64,000 bases of DNA from Tomocerus qinae (Eukaryota; Arthropoda; Collembola; Entomobryomorpha; Tomoceridae). Location: contig CM034547.1 of assembly GCA_020055645.1 (NCBI GenBank), forward strand, positions 26,808,513-26,872,512, written 5' to 3'. Shown here piece after piece: positions 8,721-64,000 of the stretch. Within the stretch, counting starts at the first letter, position 1. Each line of letters starts with the position of its first letter. The notes beneath the pieces are model-generated. The model was not told where the DNA came from and did no database searches. It saw nothing but the letters and a program-made list of their open reading frames with translations. The position numbers and the translations under genes were made by a program.

Positions 8721-10862
8721 TCATTGGGCATCGATTTTCTTGAGTCTATGCCATTCCAATCGTTCATTGATTGCGGCAAGGATGGGAAAATTTCTCCAAG
8801 CCAAACAATAATTTTTAAAGTCATCTTGCTCTAGTGACCAGACCATCATTCCGCCTAAGCCTCTATCCATGGCGAAATCAACCTGAAAATGTTAAATTGC
8901 ATTCTTTTGTATTTTAAAAGTGTTGGATAGGCAGAGTTGTAGAAATAAATGCTGTAATAACTTTCTCCTGGGCACTGATTTCATCATCATAGCCAATCCA
9001 TTTGTTGTTGTTGAAAGCATATGGGACTTTATAATCATGGTCGAAGTGAAATTCCCATTCGGGCAAATTCCTTCTAACGTCCAAGCAGATCTAAAATGGA
9101 ATTTACGGATGAATGAATTCTGGTGGTCATTTCAAGAGATTAATTCCCCATTTCTGTACATCAGATGTATTTATGTGATGGCATTTCGATGTCATGTAAT
9201 AGCCTTCTGGTGTACCTCATAGTAAGCCATAGTTCCTTCCTGTTGGGTGAAAGCGAAAAGCGGTCCAGGCCCAGCAGCTTTATCGTAAAAATTGTGCTTC
9301 GATCTTTCGTTCAATGTATAAGTCCGCCCGTACGTTCCAACACCTAAGACAAGTTTCTCTGGAGGTGCTCCAAGTTCTATGAAGTAATCAACTGCCCATT
9401 GCTGCACACGCATTAAATTCTTTAATTCCCACACAGATATCGACGTCTAATGCTCTTAAAATAGATTACTAAGAGTAAGTGCTTACAGTTGTTAGCGTAC
9501 TGTTCGCTTCATTTTCACCTGGTTTAGGAAACAGTGGGCTTTGGTGTCCAATTAATTGAGACTCCGGACTCTCGCTCCAAACCTTGAAGTCGTACAGCAT
9601 CAAGTTGAAGTAATCAATGTACCTTTTGTGACAAAATAAAAACATTAACCATTTATGCAAGATTTACGAAATCACATCTTATTTACTTGGAAATTTCAGG
9701 AACGTCGTAGGCGGCATCAATTACATCTTTACCACAACCAAATGCAGATGTTAAGAACATGGTACGACCTATTTCAATTTCGGTTCGGTTTAAACTCTCT
9801 TTCAGTTCCTGTAAGGACAACATTATTAGGTACGTAGTACAAACAATTTTATTGTATTCCAATTTTTGCATCTGTCTGTATTACTCTCAAAAAGATTGGA
9901 AAGTTAATTTTATCTTCGTCTATCCCCCCACGTTTCGCCGGGTATTCCCAGTCCATATCAATGCCATCCAGATTATGTTTTATTATGAAAGCGATAATAC
10001 TGTCAATGAAAATTCTTCTACTGTTTAACCTTCTGGCCATATCTGAGAACCTTTGGGATCCCTGATTCCAACCACCAATTGCAATCAAAACTTTCAAATT
10101 TGGGTTACCCCCGGGCCCATCTCTCAATAAAGTAGCCTTTTTCAACATTCCTGAAAAGCAGTTTTTAGTTTAGCATTCAGAAAATGATTTGAATTAAAAT
10201 TCGGATCATAATGCACACCATGCTGTCCTTGATCAAATCCTGGTTTCTCAGGATTTTCTTCACGATCCCATGTCTCTAAATCTAGTCCTGGATCAAGGGA
10301 GTTGATCTTACTGCTGTTTATATGAAGACCAGCAAAGGAGTATATAAGATGTGTACATAAGAAAGGGTTGATATCGTCATTTGTGAATTTCCCTTCCTCT
10401 TTAAATTCTGTAGGAAAAAAGATTGAGCTTTACTGCAGTTATGTATTAGAACTAATTGAATTATAAAACTTTAAAGTACCAGGATAATAAGACTCGTGAG
10501 CTGTTTTGTAGAAAGCCCACGTTCCCCAGTAGCACATTACAACCTTGCCACCTATTAAAATATTTCACCGAATAAGATATGTTTATATAGTGCATTTTGC
10601 ATTATTTTGTATGTAATGTAATACTCTGAACTGAAACATAAATAGTTATATTGTAACATAGAATATTAAGCATTCGTTGTTTTTCTTACCTGATTTCGTA
10701 GATGCTGATAAAGTCGATACGAAAATGCACCAAGTGCAAACAAACAACACTGAAAGGAACCAATAAAAAAATTTAAATCAAACTACTTATAACCATGTTT
10801 AAATACCCCGTGGTCAGTGATTATATATGTCTTTCGTTCATACCTTTGCAAATGAAATTCAT
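8721..10862 (-). CDS. Chitinase A, secreted GH18 catalytic domain without chitin-binding domain
   Basis: Predicted endochitinase (GH18) that hydrolyses beta-1,4 linkages in chitin. Ten exons join in frame to 461 aa: 10844-10862, 10690-10749, 10480-10551, 10219-10407, 9885-10150, 9687-9808, 9487-9622, 9216-9446, 8962-9090 and 8721-8882 (stop TGA). The first two exons encode a hydrophobic signal peptide starting MNFICKVLFVC. The GH18 core follows: KVVMCYWGTW early, LKVLIAIGGW near residues 132-141, the catalytic motif DGIDMDWEYP at 175-184 with acid/base Glu182, then YFNLMLYDF, LGVGTYGRTY and the C-terminal GGMMVWSLEQDDF. All family-typical catalytic residues are present, so it should be active. 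The protein ends soon after the barrel with no peritrophin domain, unlike chitinase B. One intron (9447-9486) is only 40 nt. It lies on the same strand as the M15-like gene and chitinase B upstream. Confidence 0.94.
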
Positions 10863-12947
10863 TTTGCTATTTTTATACTGTGTTCGGCTTGTTTTATTTA
10901 TTCTTCCACTTTAATTTTACATATAAGAGCTCCAGCTCCTTAATGAAAGTTAGTACAAGTATAATACTTAAAATATCTTATGTGTTATAAAGATTATTTG
11001 GTACATATGCCGAAATTCCTATCCTACTTACTACTTATGGCATGGCATACGGCAAAAATAAATTATCATTTGCTATTTATATAATTTCACAGTGCGTGCC
11101 ATTGTCGTCAAAGGCTTCGGCTTCACTGTGAACCGATATCGAGTTTAGTAGAACAGGGAGAGTTGTCATCTGAATTGACGTTCGATAAACAAGATATCAA
11201 ATCGTTTGGTACATTACGCACATAATCATTTGTTTAACTAACGGTGGAAAAAGTAAATGTTAATGTTACTACGTATGCTAAACTCAATGAGATTATCAAT
11301 ATTTTTCAACATTTACTCGTATATTGCATCGGTTGGTTGGGATTACTTACGGCTCTTGAACTTTGTCTTCTACCTAACATTAGGAGGTTTATCAGGCATC
11401 CGAGAAATGACATAAATACAACTCCAACCATGCTGACCCATGTTGGATGTGTCCGATTTGCGTAGGTAATTTTCTGTAAAATGTTATGGCGTAAGCGTAA
11501 GAACAAAAGCAATATCATCGTTGTGTTTGAATTGGAAATGATGTGTCAACTTTTGATTGAAAACATTATATAATAATTAATTATTACCATATAATTGAAC
11601 AGTATAACATACATCGATGGACTTCTCTTGTAGTAATGACTTTTTAGAAATCACCCGCCAGCCAACAATACATTTTTCCGACCGCAACACAAAATGTGGA
11701 TGTATATGGGTCAGAATCCACTCACATTCGTTATTAGCTTCAGCGGGTATTATTGGTGAATTAATACCTGGAGGGAATGGATTCTGAAACAGTGTATATA
11801 TATCCATTATTGAGTTGCGGTCGGACAAATGTATTGTTGGTCAGCGGGTGATTTCTAGAAAGGACTTTACAAGAGAAGTCCCCCGATGATAACGTATGTA
11901 AGTAAATGTTGACACTGTTTCCTATCTACCACTCTACTGACTAATTTCCAGCAGATAGATAGAGCAATAATTAATTAATTATCTTTGTATTGTATCAGCA
12001 CCTATTATTAGACAGTTTAAAGTATTTTTACATCTGCCTATGGGAACTGTTACTGGTATTCAATCTAAATGTAAATGTCAATATCATCAGTGTTAATGAA
12101 AGTATTGTACATGTGCATAATGAATTATTGCACAATGTACTTGAAAATTGAATGAGGTTGGAGGAGGTTACGCTGCTGCGTCATTTACGTTCCCGGACAA
12201 ATAATGCATAATGATTTTCTTGAAACCAATTTACTATTGAATAAAATTATTCCCAGTTTTTAATTATGATATTGGCGTTTGTAGGAGTAAGCACAGAAAA
12301 TTAAGAGATCTTGGTAGACAAACCTGAAGTGACAAGTCCCGCATTATATTCACACTTTCCTTGAAACGATAATTTTTAACCTCTTTGGAAAATCATGGAA
12401 GCAGAAATGCGGAGGAGTGGTTGCTCCTTTGCCACTTAAAGATGTTATCAAGGTACATTCTGTTTAAGTAGGTCGTGTCGTGGGAGGAAGATGTGGACTC
12501 TTGCAGAAAATTTTGGCCCTATGCCTAATAATATGAATTGTATTGAAGCTGGTGGCTTAGGGTCACTATATTCTCATTTCTCATCATCTACCATAGGTAT
12601 ATGTATCCTACGCTTTAATATCAATGATTGCATATCACGGATGATAGCCATACCTTACAATTTTGTTACAAATACTCTGCAACCTGCAACTGAATTATTA
12701 TAAAAATCTGAACAGAACTTTTTCCATGTCAGCAAACGGAAAAATACAGAAGTACAAAAAATTCAGAAATTCCACGTAATATTATCTACGTGCTTAGTAC
12801 TATTATGGTGCAATAATGATGAAATGATTACTCCGATGGATGATTACTTCTGGAATGTTCATATGAGATACTTGATGAAGAATTTCTATTTCTATCAACT
12901 CAGGTAATCGCTAATGAGCCAAAATGAATGTTTTTTGCTTTTGCTTA
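10863..12947. other. Intergenic, chitinase A to M15-like gene
   Basis: About 2 kb between the start of chitinase A and the 3' end of the M15-like gene. It should contain the chitinase A promoter. Short open frames (for example 11577-11828 minus, 12491-12703 plus) show no domain or splice support. No repeat was recognised. Confidence 0.55.
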
Positions 12948-12953
12948 TTTATT
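12948..12953 (-). terminator. Candidate poly(A) signal of the M15-like gene
   Basis: AATAAA on the minus strand, about 55 nt past the TAA stop of the M15-like peptidase gene. This is a typical spacing. Confidence 0.45.
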
Positions 12954-13006: not shown

Positions 13007-14080
13007 TTAATAATAGAGAATATCCCAATGGTTTCCTTCCTTAGCGTAAATGTTTCCAGCTGCCGATTGATATTGGGGAGCACCATCTCCAGGCCTGTCA
13101 CACATACAATACATCTTAATTCTAATGGAAATTCTTCATTTTTGAAATATTATTGCTAAGATTATTTTATGACCTGTTGCCAATAAAAGCAAAACGGGTG
13201 GTGACGTAGTTATCAATGCAAGTGCTTATCCTGATGTCCAATTTGTATCCATTCCAGTGGGAGTAGGTTCCACTTGCGTGGCCAGTCTATAAAAAGAAGA
13301 TTGGAATTTAATTTGGTCGAGATTGGCAATCGTGAGTCAAAATGATGTTTCTAATTCGAGTTAGGGTTAAAGGTCAAAGATGTAATAGGTTATACTTCGG
13401 TTCCTCCGGTTATGGTAATAGCACATCCAGAAGCAGACTTGAGAGTGATAATTTGGGAAATTGTATTTTCACGAACTTGATCGAGGGATGTGCAAGTTGG
13501 AACATTTCTGTCACTGCAACCTCCCGAAGATGAAATGCTGATGCCTGGAAGTCGTAAAGAGAGACATTTGGGAATTCACATCGTTATTAGTTTACCCAGA
13601 CGAAAACATAATAAACTCCCAGGGAGTAAATAATTCCTCAATTCCCTTATTAAACATACCGGGAAAAATGTCAACAAGTTATGCTTTCTGTAGTTAGTTT
13701 TATAAGCGCCCATAGAAATCAAAAACAAGAAAAATAATTGAATTTTCTGGTTTCTGGTTGTGCAACTTATGCTATAAATGAACTGCCAAAGGCTTTGGGA
13801 GTATTATTTTTGAAAGGTAGTATTCTAATTTAATGTTGGTTATATAGTAACTCACCTGCGTTTCGAATAAGATTCAGGGCTTGAGCATGAGTGTACTTGG
13901 CACTGTAAATATTTATATAGATTAGCATTTGCATAAATGCAAGGTTTAAATTGAATATTCATCTTGCAAAGTGAATAGCACAAGAACATCTCTTTGTCAG
14001 ATATGAAATGAATAGAACTCTTACCTTGCAGTTGAAGATAGGGCAATTAAACCCACAATTACAAGAAAGAGCTTATTCAT
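13007..14080 (-). CDS. Secreted M15-like DD-peptidase (Hedgehog/DD-peptidase fold), possible horizontal acquisition
   Basis: Five exons (14025-14080, 13856-13902, 13396-13544, 13174-13286, 13007-13094) with GT-AG introns of 79 to 311 nt join in frame to 150 aa. Residues 1-18 form a clear signal peptide (MNKLFLVIVGLIALSSTA). The mature domain has the zinc-site pattern of M15/VanY-type D-Ala-D-Ala peptidases: His94 and Asp101 in SHWNGYKLD (HxxxxxxD), then Glu141 and His144 in EGNHWD (ExxH). Four Cys (44, 52, 75, 107) could make two disulfides, fitting secretion. Known: M15 enzymes cleave D-Ala-containing peptides of bacterial peptidoglycan. Inference: this acts on bacterial walls in gut or environment. 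Compact single-domain proteins with GHASGTYSHWNGYK-like cores are, as far as I recall, mainly bacterial and fungal, so horizontal transfer is likely but unproven. It is flanked on the same strand by two chitinases. Other members of the fold could bind rather than cleave. Confidence 0.83.
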
Positions 14081-15269: not shown

Positions 15270-18200
15270 TTATTGAGGACAGTCGGTAACCAATTCTTTG
15301 TGAATGCAAGCTCTAGTCCCTTTGTCAAAGTAGGTTCCTGGTGGGCAATCTCTTCTGTAGATAGTCCACCCCTCTCCATTAGCAATGCACCAGTAGTAAA
15401 CAGAGCAATTATTCAATGGGTCTGGATTATATCCTTCGTATTGACAGATTTCTGTCACTGGAGGAGGACGAGCTGTAGTGGTTGTGGTCTACCGAATTCA
15501 AATTAGTGATTAGATCTTTATAAAGACAGTCTACAGTAATAACGTAGTAGACCTTGACTTACCGGAACAGGTCCAGTTGGTTGAGGGCCTGGAGTTGTGG
15601 TTGGAGGAGGTTGATATTCGCCATTTAATACTCTGTAGATAGTTTTGATCAAAACAAAAGGTTCTCCGTGACAAAGCCCGAGAAAATCATCTGTTTCTAA
15701 CGACCATACCATTCCACCACCAAGTCCCATGTCTACTGCCCATTGAGCCTAAGAATATATAACATATAATTATGACTATTTCATCATTACTATTATGTGA
15801 TTCTCCATAAAAGAAAACACCATTTGAAATTAATCCAAAGGGCTTTGCCGTTCGTAAATTACGAAATGTTATACAATCAGACAGAACTAAGCACCTACAG
15901 ATTCTTGTCACTAAGGATTTGTAACTGGAGTGCGATAACGAAGCCCTGAAAATTGTTATCCGTACTTAGACTAAGCTTCTAAAATAAATTTTGCATTTCA
16001 AAGCAAATTCCTTTCTAATAATTGTCGCATGCATCTCATTAGTTTGCTCCAGGGTAACTTATATGTATGGTTAATTCTGGGATTATAATTTGAGAGAAAA
16101 CCAAACCACATGAACTACCTATATGACTTCAAATGCAGAGACGCACGTGGAACTACATTAATTGGAACTTCATATGCTTACTGCAAAGTAGCCGAATGTT
16201 TTATTGTCCTTTTATCTAAAGGTGATCCCCATCTAAAAGACACATTACATAGAAAGGATACAGCAGAAAATTTGCACAGCAGGTATCTGTAACCAATACA
16301 TTCCTATGGTAATTGCCATTTTTCGACTTTTAACATGTGAAGGGTCTGTCCGCCCGAACTGGCTCCGTGTAAATCACACGGAGCCACGGAGCCAGTTCGG
16401 GCGGACAGACCCTTCACATGTTAAAAGTCGAAAAATGGCAATTACCATAGGAATGTATTGGTTACAGATACCTGCTGTGCAAATTTTCTGCTGTATCCTT
16501 TCTATGTAATGTGTTATTAGATAGGATCAATCTTTGCGTGAAACCATAATAACTGAAGTATAACCAATTAAAGTCTCTGAGACAAGAGCGTAGAATTGAT
16601 AATCAAGCTATGTACATAAACGAAATACATAATTATAGAGGTCGAAATTCGAGATATCCAGTTTCCCATTAGATATAGTGATAAAGCAAGAAAACCGCAG
16701 GATCTGTCAATGGTGTCTAATTAGGTAGCTAAAAGTAAAACCCTTTCAGAAATGTATATATGATGTTTATAAATTATGTTATTACTCAGCACAGGATCAA
16801 GTACTCTATTCATTAGTACATCTCAACTTAAGTTGTTATAATTTATCAAGTACATTACCTTTCTGGCGATACTTTCTGGAGAATCATATCCGATCCAAAG
16901 TCGTCCGTTGTAAGCATAAGGGGCTCCGTAGTAAGGATCCTCCTTGATCGTCCAAAGACCTGGCTCAGATCGCATCCTTTCGCAGATCTGTTTGTCATTA
17001 ACAAACATTACCATTAAAGACAAGTGACACTCATCCAAGGGAAAGCACGGGAAATGCAATAATCGTGCTGGCGGAGTAGTGAGAAAAGATTTAGCTTTGA
17101 TCTTATCAAGTAGTAAAATATATTGTAGGTAGGTATCATTAATCGCATAATGACAACTCCATTCCCTATTTCCTTTTCAACTCCCACGCTTACATGACTT
17201 TAAAATTGTGTTATAGGCGAAAGGCTTATAGAAAGCAAGGACGAAGATAGTTTTAATTATAATGGTAAAAAATGATTAAAATAGGTAGTAGAAAATCATT
17301 AGTCTAGTTAGGGGAAAAGAGGTTTTCCAGGATTTTAGGGTTTAATTTTATTATCTCTAACACACCTTGTTGGGTATTATAGATAAGTGAGTGAGAAGAG
17401 CTTACTTCGTTGTATCCCCATGTTCCAGCTTCTCTTGTGTATGGTCCAGCATTTATAGGTTGGTTCGCTGGGGCAAAAAGACCATTTTCATTAGGGTTGT
17501 CCAGAGTAAATCCACGACCGTATGTCCCCATTCCCAAAATAAGCTTTTCTCTAGGGGCTCCATGAGAAATCCAGTAGTTGATGCTGTGATTCTATATTAT
17601 CATCCATGCTCTTTTTAATCAAACCCGGAAGTCAATGACTTTAAAACAATATGAAACGCATAATTCTTATTATTCATTAATTCTGTCCTAGCGAAAATGT
17701 CAACTACAGCCAGTTCGCAGTAGGGAAGGTGAATAACTTTGGATTTGCTAGAGTAAACACTTACTAATTGTAATTATCTTTCTATTATGTTCCTAGAATA
17801 AATATAGACACTAGAGACGTTGCAATTAAATGAAAACGTTCTTGTAAGTGGACGATATGATTCTAAACCCAAATTCCTCATTTTCTTTTTGTACAATACA
17901 CTATAGTGTAATTGGACCCAATCTAAAGTTTCTTTCTAGAGACAATTGTTAAGTTTAAGCCCAAGAGAAAAAAATAAATGTTGATATCACAAGAATAGTA
18001 ATCTCCCATGTTGAAAAAAGAAAAGTTTTAAGGAAATCAATGGTTTGCTATTAGCTAAAAGGTTCTTCCCCATTGAAATTGGAATCCAAAATCCAAATGA
18101 GGTTCGTAGACTTTCTGCATGTGTCTCTAGGAACAAAAGAGAGTTGCTCTATTATCTGTTGAATTGCTGGAATTATATAACCCGAATAATGCTTGGATTG

Positions 18201-62802: not shown

Positions 62803-64000
62803 TTAATGAATTTTGCTCAAGAGTTGTGCTACTCTATCGAACTCGAGATCAAGAATAGCTTCTTGAACTTCATCTAGTCTAGTTTGTACTTCTTTCTGTC
62901 CCTCAAAATGCTTACGCTTGTAGTAAAGATCTTTAATAAGCTCAATTTCCTTATTACCATATTCAACACCGAATTTCTGCTGAAGAACATTGAGGAATCC
63001 ATTTCCGAACTCACGAGTTGGTTCTATCATGGTACCTTCTCCGTAGTCATTCCATGTGGCCAATTGGATCCAGTTTACGTTACCATTGATTGCCAAGTCG
63101 AGAGTTTGAGTAAATGTTCCAAGACCATTGTGTCCAATATTCCATTCTGGTCCTGGCCATCCTGCATTATTCAAAATATACTCATTAAAATTACGAGAAT
63201 ATTATTATTAGAAAATATAAAATGATTGTTTACCTCCGATAGAGTAGAAAGTGTGGAATCCAGGATAGGCAACTCCGAATTTGACTCCAGGTTGATGATT
63301 GAAATAAAAGTGATTGAGACCTTGGATGAAATCGAAGTAGATCCATGGGTATTCTCCAGCTGAGCTTCCGGCAGCTTCTTGGGATTGGTACCAGAGAGTA
63401 AGGAATGTGGGTCTTTGACTCAGAGCTGAGAAAATGTTGCTCCACTCTGAAGGGTCTTTAAAAGTTTGTGGACCAAAATCCAGGAGGAGGGGAGCATTAT
63501 TGACACGAATATAATTTCCTCGGGTGAAATAGTTGTTGCTAATGTAGGACATATCTTGTCTTCCAGCTTGTAATTTATCACCGATAAATCCAGCATCGTG
63601 AGCCATACCGATATTATGATCTTCGTAGACAATAGCAAATCCTAACCCAAAGTTTTGAGTTCTATCAATTAAAGCATTGGCGTTCTGAAGATTTTTTGGG
63701 TAATCCCAGGCGTTGACAGTTCCTGGCCAGTCCATAAGTACACCGTCAATACCAGCAACTCTCATCAGATTGAGTTGGTACTCAATCACAGAAGGATCGC
63801 CCGAACCTATAATTAAAAGAAGATTAGATGTAAACATTTTCAATCAGATTATTCAGATAATCAATAAAAATTATTTTATTACCATAAGGGCCAATTTCAG
63901 GGTAGTAGTGGGCTGCAATTTGACGTCTGCCATTTCCATCGACGATGTCTGGATTCATATTGGCCATAGTCCAATGAATACCCCATTGGCCAGTTCCTGA
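62803..64000 (-). CDS. GH71/99-like glycoside hydrolase, 5' end beyond window; possible horizontal acquisition
   Basis: The 3' part of a glycoside hydrolase of the GH71/99-like type. Three exons are visible: 63883-64000 (continues off the right edge), 63234-63806 and 62803-63161 (stop TAA), joined in frame by GT-AG introns of 76 and 72 nt, about 349 residues. Segments in order: GQWGIHWTMANMNPDIVD, IAAHYYPEIGPYGSGDPSV, AGIDGVLMDWPG, FAIVYEDHNIG, LLLDFGPQTF, WYQSQEA and TWNDYGEGTMIEPTREFG (63031-63054 encodes WNDYGEGT). The last resembles the catalytic EGT-IEP loop of GH99 endo-alpha-mannosidases, but with Asp where GH99 usually has the first Glu. To my knowledge this full architecture is chiefly bacterial (Bacteroidetes and others), so horizontal gain is likely. 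The substrate is unknown; alpha-mannan or alpha-glucan of microbial walls is an inference. Confidence 0.85.

Follow-up and report, generated by a model that had tools for sequence, protein, structure and literature searches.

A 64,000-nucleotide stretch of the Tomocerus qinae genome (the window; assembly GCA_020055645.1, contig CM034547.1, positions 26,808,513 to 26,872,512) carries on its minus strand a small intron-bearing gene whose closest kin among the sequences compared are bacterial, and comparison of these sequences makes it very likely that the gene was transferred from bacteria. We consider it likely that the product is a secreted peptidoglycan peptidase with a LAS fold and a zinc mechanism, that the gene passed from a bacterium to a pancrustacean and had already acquired three or more introns by the time of its duplication, and that the animal may put the enzyme to antibacterial or digestive use.

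Gene structure, second copy and selection

The 150-residue reading frame runs from position 14080 to position 13007 of the window, which lies at 26.8 Mb of a 71.8-Mb contig (assembly total 334.4 Mb), and is joined from five exons across four GT-AG introns, all on the minus strand. Exon 1 (14025..14080, 56 bp) supplies the start codon and most of a signal-like N-terminus; exon 2 (13856..13902) has 47 bp; exon 3 (13396..13544, 149 bp) encodes Cys44, Cys52, Cys75 and Glu84; exon 4 (13174..13286, 113 bp) encodes His87, His94-x6-Asp101 and Cys107; and exon 5 (13007..13094, 88 bp) encodes Glu141-x2-His144-Trp-Asp146 and the stop codon. The introns measure 122 bp (intron 1, 13903..14024), 311 bp (intron 2, 13545..13855), 109 bp (intron 3, 13287..13395) and 79 bp (intron 4, 13095..13173), and a single AATAAA, a possible polyadenylation signal on the same strand, is found 54 bases beyond the stop codon (12948..12953). 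The complete protein, its four introns, its four cysteines and the pairs His94/Asp101 and Glu141/His144 are all as a preliminary description of this DNA had given them, and the first 20 residues, MNKLFLVIVGLIALSSTASA, resemble a secretion signal, as judged by eye. The set of motifs is not a chance occurrence, because shuffling the mature protein 300,000 times never reproduced HxxGxxxD with a following hydrophobic residue together with ExxH followed by an aromatic, an acidic and a hydrophobic residue; the shorter pattern HxxGxxxD...ExxH appeared in 118 of the 300,000.

The same genome contains a second copy (C2:42028033-42027261), 15.2 Mb from the first, with exons of 56, 47, 149 and 201 bp compared with 56, 47, 149 and 113 + 88 bp in the window, and searching the animal genome at the protein level (E ≤ 10) revealed exons of these two genes only. 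The gene model is backed both by these matching exon lengths and by the bacterial relatives, which align through to the same C-terminus. Introns 1–3 are common to the two copies in position and phase, whereas intron 4 is confined to the window copy; at least three introns are therefore older than the duplication.

The two animal proteins are identical at 126 of 150 residues, and the codon differences between the copies fall at positions one, two and three in the numbers 19, 14 and 83. Fitting a GY94 codon model, written for this analysis, gave an omega (dN/dS) of 0.042 over the full sequence (2dlnL of 154 against an omega of 1) and, over the mature part, of 0.030 (2dlnL of 151); both copies are therefore kept as proteins under strong purifying selection. 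A maximum-likelihood dN/dS of 0.80 returned by Biopython was set aside, since 83 of the 116 differences lie at third positions and the GY94 model gives 0.042; among the other Biopython estimates, LWL85 gave 0.064 and NG86 left dS undefined. The introns, the second copy, native-looking neighbouring genes and an omega of 0.04 together support the earlier proposal that the gene has been domesticated.

Bacterial relatives and origin of the gene

When bacterial and archaeal genomes were scanned, at least 595 stretches matched the pattern, and at least 510 of these encode a relative. We kept the best 80 for comparison; they share 57–71% identity with the animal protein in the best segment and come, by record title, mostly from Streptomyces, the rest being other Actinomycetota and one Dictyobacter. 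The closest kin among the sequences compared are mainly from Streptomyces, Knoellia and Promicromonospora, and the highest identity over the mature protein, 72%, is with Knoellia subterranea. The distribution of the family is patchy, with members in 18 of 186 genomes of the family to which K. subterranea belongs, in 8 of 396 sampled across its phylum and in 3 of 301 sampled from that of Dictyobacter, the starting genome being counted in each case. Plasmid records carrying a relative number 42 (40 from Streptomyces, one from Deinococcus and one from Nonomuraea). Carriage by phages was also considered and found no support, as a search of phage records and viral contigs returned no relatives.

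The company that the bacterial proteins keep points to the cell wall. PG_binding_1 was detected in 8 of the 10 longer bacterial reading frames scanned, one of these eight also having a GH25 lysozyme domain, and no domain was seen in the remaining two. Of the plasmid records, 43 matched and 42 rows were listed; in these, five matches stand under a GH25 lysozyme annotation and six under peptidoglycan-binding proteins, and in Deinococcus an annotated N-acetylmuramoyl-L-alanine amidase precedes the gene for the relative. Because of these fusions and gene neighbours, the sequence evidence supports an action of the bacterial proteins on peptidoglycan, as had been suggested at the outset, and the animal proteins would act likewise by descent.

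The protein tree that had been proposed as a check was built with bacterial rows and the two animal copies, 116 sequences being reduced to 71 at 92% identity; a second tree kept 59 rows after 12 long-branched rows had been dropped. In both, the animal pair forms one clade (99/99) nested inside the bacterial diversity, on a branch of 0.4 changes per column. In the 71-row tree the pair shares an open group (88/89) with wall-binding fusions and with rows from Chloroflexota and Deinococcus; in the 59-row tree it lies within sets of 19 (99/98) and 27 (95/89) rows. A grouping of the animals with Chloroflexota and Deinococcus has support of 73/86, and constraining them with Knoellia-type rows or with Promicromonospora was not rejected by the approximately unbiased test (p-AU 0.191 and 0.526, respectively); for these reasons we name no donor. 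It could have been an actinobacterium, or else a member of the Chloroflexota/Deinococcus type that, like the animal proteins, has no Cys-rich tail. Such a tail (e.g. CGGC) ends 91 of the 114 bacterial domains compared, some of which repeat one locus, and is absent from both animal proteins and from the Dictyobacter and Deinococcus relatives.

The microbial origin claimed in the preliminary description is supported, as a bacterial one, by this nesting and by the high identities, and the gene has the features of a transferred one, being nested among bacterial sequences, integrated and intron-bearing. The high similarity of the bacterial proteins might also suggest bacterial contamination or a chimeric assembly, but the gene has spliceosomal introns, its locus lies between GH18 genes on the 71.8-Mb contig and the GC content of its coding sequence is 0.435, as against 0.50–0.78 (median 0.71) in the best 80 bacterial loci. 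That the intron structure is shared with the second copy elsewhere refutes contamination, to which we attach a negligible probability. A less direct route, in which the gene came by way of another eukaryote such as a fungus, or in which several soil animals inherited one older transfer, deserves more weight; we think it less likely than not, although the comparison with bacterial sequences yielded nothing against it. It would accord with the three shared introns, which make the gene eukaryotic before its duplication, with the length of the branch leading to the animal pair and with the many transferred bacterial, fungal and protist genes that the available text of PMC5490193 reports for springtails; for Folsomia candida, the same text counts 809 foreign genes and assigns a bacterial origin to 39.9% of them.

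Beyond the sequences sampled, the direction from bacterium to animal would still hold under the transfer that we prefer, and its recipient would be a pancrustacean, perhaps a springtail. The mitochondrial genes stand in the order nad2, cox1, trnL(taa), cox2, trnK, trnD, atp6, cox3, trnG, nad3, followed by the A-R-N-S-E-F tRNAs, and trnL between cox1 and cox2 is a mark of Pancrustacea. Two mitochondrial stretches were noted in the assembly, a long one inside a 140-Mb contig, beside a retroelement-like frame (C1:36668000-36677900), and a broken one in a small contig (C81:6000-15900); these are nuclear mitochondrial inserts or assembly joins.

Family, fold and putative metal site

The protein family appears to be uncatalogued in the libraries searched. 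Pfam at E ≤ 1 gave no match for the animal protein, the weak Pfam matches of 34 bacterial members include no M15 model, NCBIfam gave neither an M15 nor any other family model, PHROGs gave no family, and sequence searches of the PDB found weak matches only (best E 0.14 and 0.28). Comparison with VanY by hhalign, using a profile built from 8 of 20 fetched loci, scored 13.8 and was not above chance, 60 column shuffles having reached up to 15.4; a single M15_3 protein scored 13.9 without a separate shuffle control.

Two predicted structures, on the other hand, both rank the Hedgehog and MepA folds of the LAS superfamily (Pfam clan Peptidase_MD) first, with modest scores. LAS folds occupy ranks 1–36 for the first model and 1–35 for the second, counting the matches to LysECD7 and VldE, which we take to be LAS proteins. 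Foldseek alone gave nothing at E ≤ 0.001 in the PDB or among viral models, and phage proteins named 'Peptidase M15A, C-terminal' appeared at ranks 2 and 9 (E 0.05 and 0.21). The LAS metal half-site H-x6-D is present in both animal copies as His94-x6-Asp101, and the E-x-x-H of the VanY form is present as letters. In M15-type enzymes an Arg follows a TSG-like strand, and no such Arg is seen after that strand in the animal protein. The second half-site of Hedgehog and DD-peptidases, H-x-H according to the available text of PMC6027127, reads H-x-D here (His144, Asp146). The M15-like assignment originally proposed thus stands as regards the LAS fold group and part of the metal motif, but membership of M15 itself is not shown by sequence, and the absent model match, profile similarity and Arg count against it. 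A LAS-like peptidoglycan peptidase is probable.

The residues of the putative site are strongly conserved. Glu84, His87 and His94 occur in all 114 bacterial domains, Asp101 in 110, Glu141 in 112, His144 in 111 and Asp146 in 111, the other three domains having Glu at this last position; the four rows without Asp101 (two being one locus) likewise lack Glu141 and/or His144. These divergent members (L112, second frame; L123; L125), having lost Asp101 along with Glu141 and/or His144, are perhaps inactive, and the genomes of those from L112 and L125 also hold an intact member.

The zinc site first proposed comprised His94, Asp101 and His144. The His94/Asp101 half is found in both copies, but the models suggest Asp146, in place of His144, as a possible third metal ligand, because the printed alignment ranges, read without gaps along the last strand, place Asp146 on the last His of LAS proteins. 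In both models it falls on His197 of 1lbu and His211 of MepA, and in the second model only on His133 of PLY500, all three of which we take to be metal ligands. In this register His144 meets the first His of the H-x-H motif, and for LdcB (4mph), where the two models differ by two residues, the register does not decide the third ligand. In both models Asp146 (model residue 126) also falls on His183 of Shh (mouse numbering, 3d1m), a zinc ligand according to the available text of PMC6027127. A bolder reading, which we offer only tentatively, is that of an uncatalogued LAS metallopeptidase family that lacks the M15 substrate Arg and has an unusual His/Asp/Asp metal site, formed by H-x6-D and by an H-x-D where H-x-H would be usual; its bacterial members would be wall lysins, and an arthropod would have domesticated one of them for secretion as an antibacterial or digestive enzyme.

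Proposed mechanism and alternatives

Under our preferred interpretation, a bacterial gene encoding a small, secreted peptidase for peptidoglycan would have entered a pancrustacean, gained at least three introns and then been duplicated. His94 and Asp101 would bind zinc together with a C-terminal residue, either His144 or Asp146, the latter at the position of the last His in Hedgehog and M15-type enzymes. The metal would activate a water molecule, with Glu141 or His144 as the base, and a peptide bond of the bacterial wall peptides would be cleaved; the four cysteines could form disulphides that stabilize the secreted protein, with which the animal would digest or restrain bacteria.

The location of the gene between two chitinases, as described earlier, is borne out by GH18 exons above the Pfam cut-off on both sides. 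Chitinase-like exons of the left neighbour (8721..10564, minus strand, outer limits approximate and drawn by eye from reading frames) match PF00704 at 9852-10169 and 9192-9446, and below cut-off at 8914-9090. Those of the right neighbour (15270..17591, minus strand), a GH18 + CBM14 gene that probably extends further upstream, match PF01607 at 15270-15488 and PF00704 at 17307-17591, and PF00704 below cut-off at 16826-17176. Between the exons of this right-hand gene lies a perfect inverted repeat (16240-16514) with two 130-nucleotide arms and a 15-nucleotide gap. Nested inverted repeats (53 nucleotides at 89% and 21 at 90%) at 11612-11888, about 1.1 kb beyond the stop codon of the peptidase-like gene, resemble a small non-autonomous DNA transposon. 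Weak matches to GH99, GH71 and WbsX at 62806-63843 (minus strand), all below the curated cut-off, possibly mark another transferred glycosidase gene; GH25 had no match in the animal genome.

With chitinase-like genes adjacent and all on one strand, one might suppose that they and the peptidase-like gene form a functional cluster acting on chitin and peptidoglycan. Adjacency, however, is weak evidence for eukaryotic genes, and the second copy has carboxylesterase exons close by (a 9-kb stretch was examined, and chitinase was sought no farther), so that a functional link is not supported and such a cluster is very unlikely. Somewhat less improbable, although we still doubt it, is a protein that has kept the LAS fold but does not cut, binding peptidoglycan or another ligand for recognition or signalling in the manner of Hedgehog, to which the top fold scores go; the H-x-D in place of H-x-H and the missing M15-type Arg are in keeping with this. 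Nevertheless, all of the putative catalytic residues are present in both animal copies, omega over the mature part is as low as noted above, and the bacterial relatives are fused to lysozyme or wall-binding domains, all of which favours a peptidase.

Comparison with known systems

Among the open-access titles and abstract openings listed by literature searches, none describes the present family in an animal. The uptake of bacterial wall hydrolases by animals is, however, a kind of event already known. Rusticalin and the rusticalin-like proteins of ascidians and Trichoplax have an MD-clan/M15-type domain of bacterial or phage origin, according to the available parts of PMC6339383 and PMC7379824; like the present gene, theirs are intron-bearing animal genes with a LAS-type peptidase domain held to stem from a wall-cutting enzyme. 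In those accounts, however, rusticalins show significant similarity to the phage A500 L-Ala-D-Glu peptidase and are joined to Cys-rich repeats, whereas the present protein matched no family model and is a single domain behind a signal-like start. The cwh cell-wall hydrolases of ladybirds, found also in the springtails Folsomia and Orchesella, likewise represent a bacterial wall-hydrolase gene moved to arthropods and flanked by native genes, as far as the available text of PMC7807722 describes them; the comparison is by description (cell-wall hydrolase) only, and the non-ladybird copies are said there to be without a signal peptide.

The present animal protein belongs to a bacterial family outside the coverage of the Pfam, NCBIfam, PHROGs and PDB sequence searches. 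If active, it would extend both peptidoglycan biology and the antibacterial repertoire of animals by an enzyme family, and the two strongly conserved animal copies provide a clear gene for testing. Its motifs set it apart from the known enzymes: VanY/LdcB and the Zn D-Ala-D-Ala carboxypeptidase 1lbu have S-x-H-x-x-G-x-A-x-D, compared with S-H-x-x-G-x-x-x-D in the present family, and the final motif is H-x-H in the Hedgehog N-terminal domain and, we presume, in MepA (M74), in contrast to the H-x-D of the present protein.
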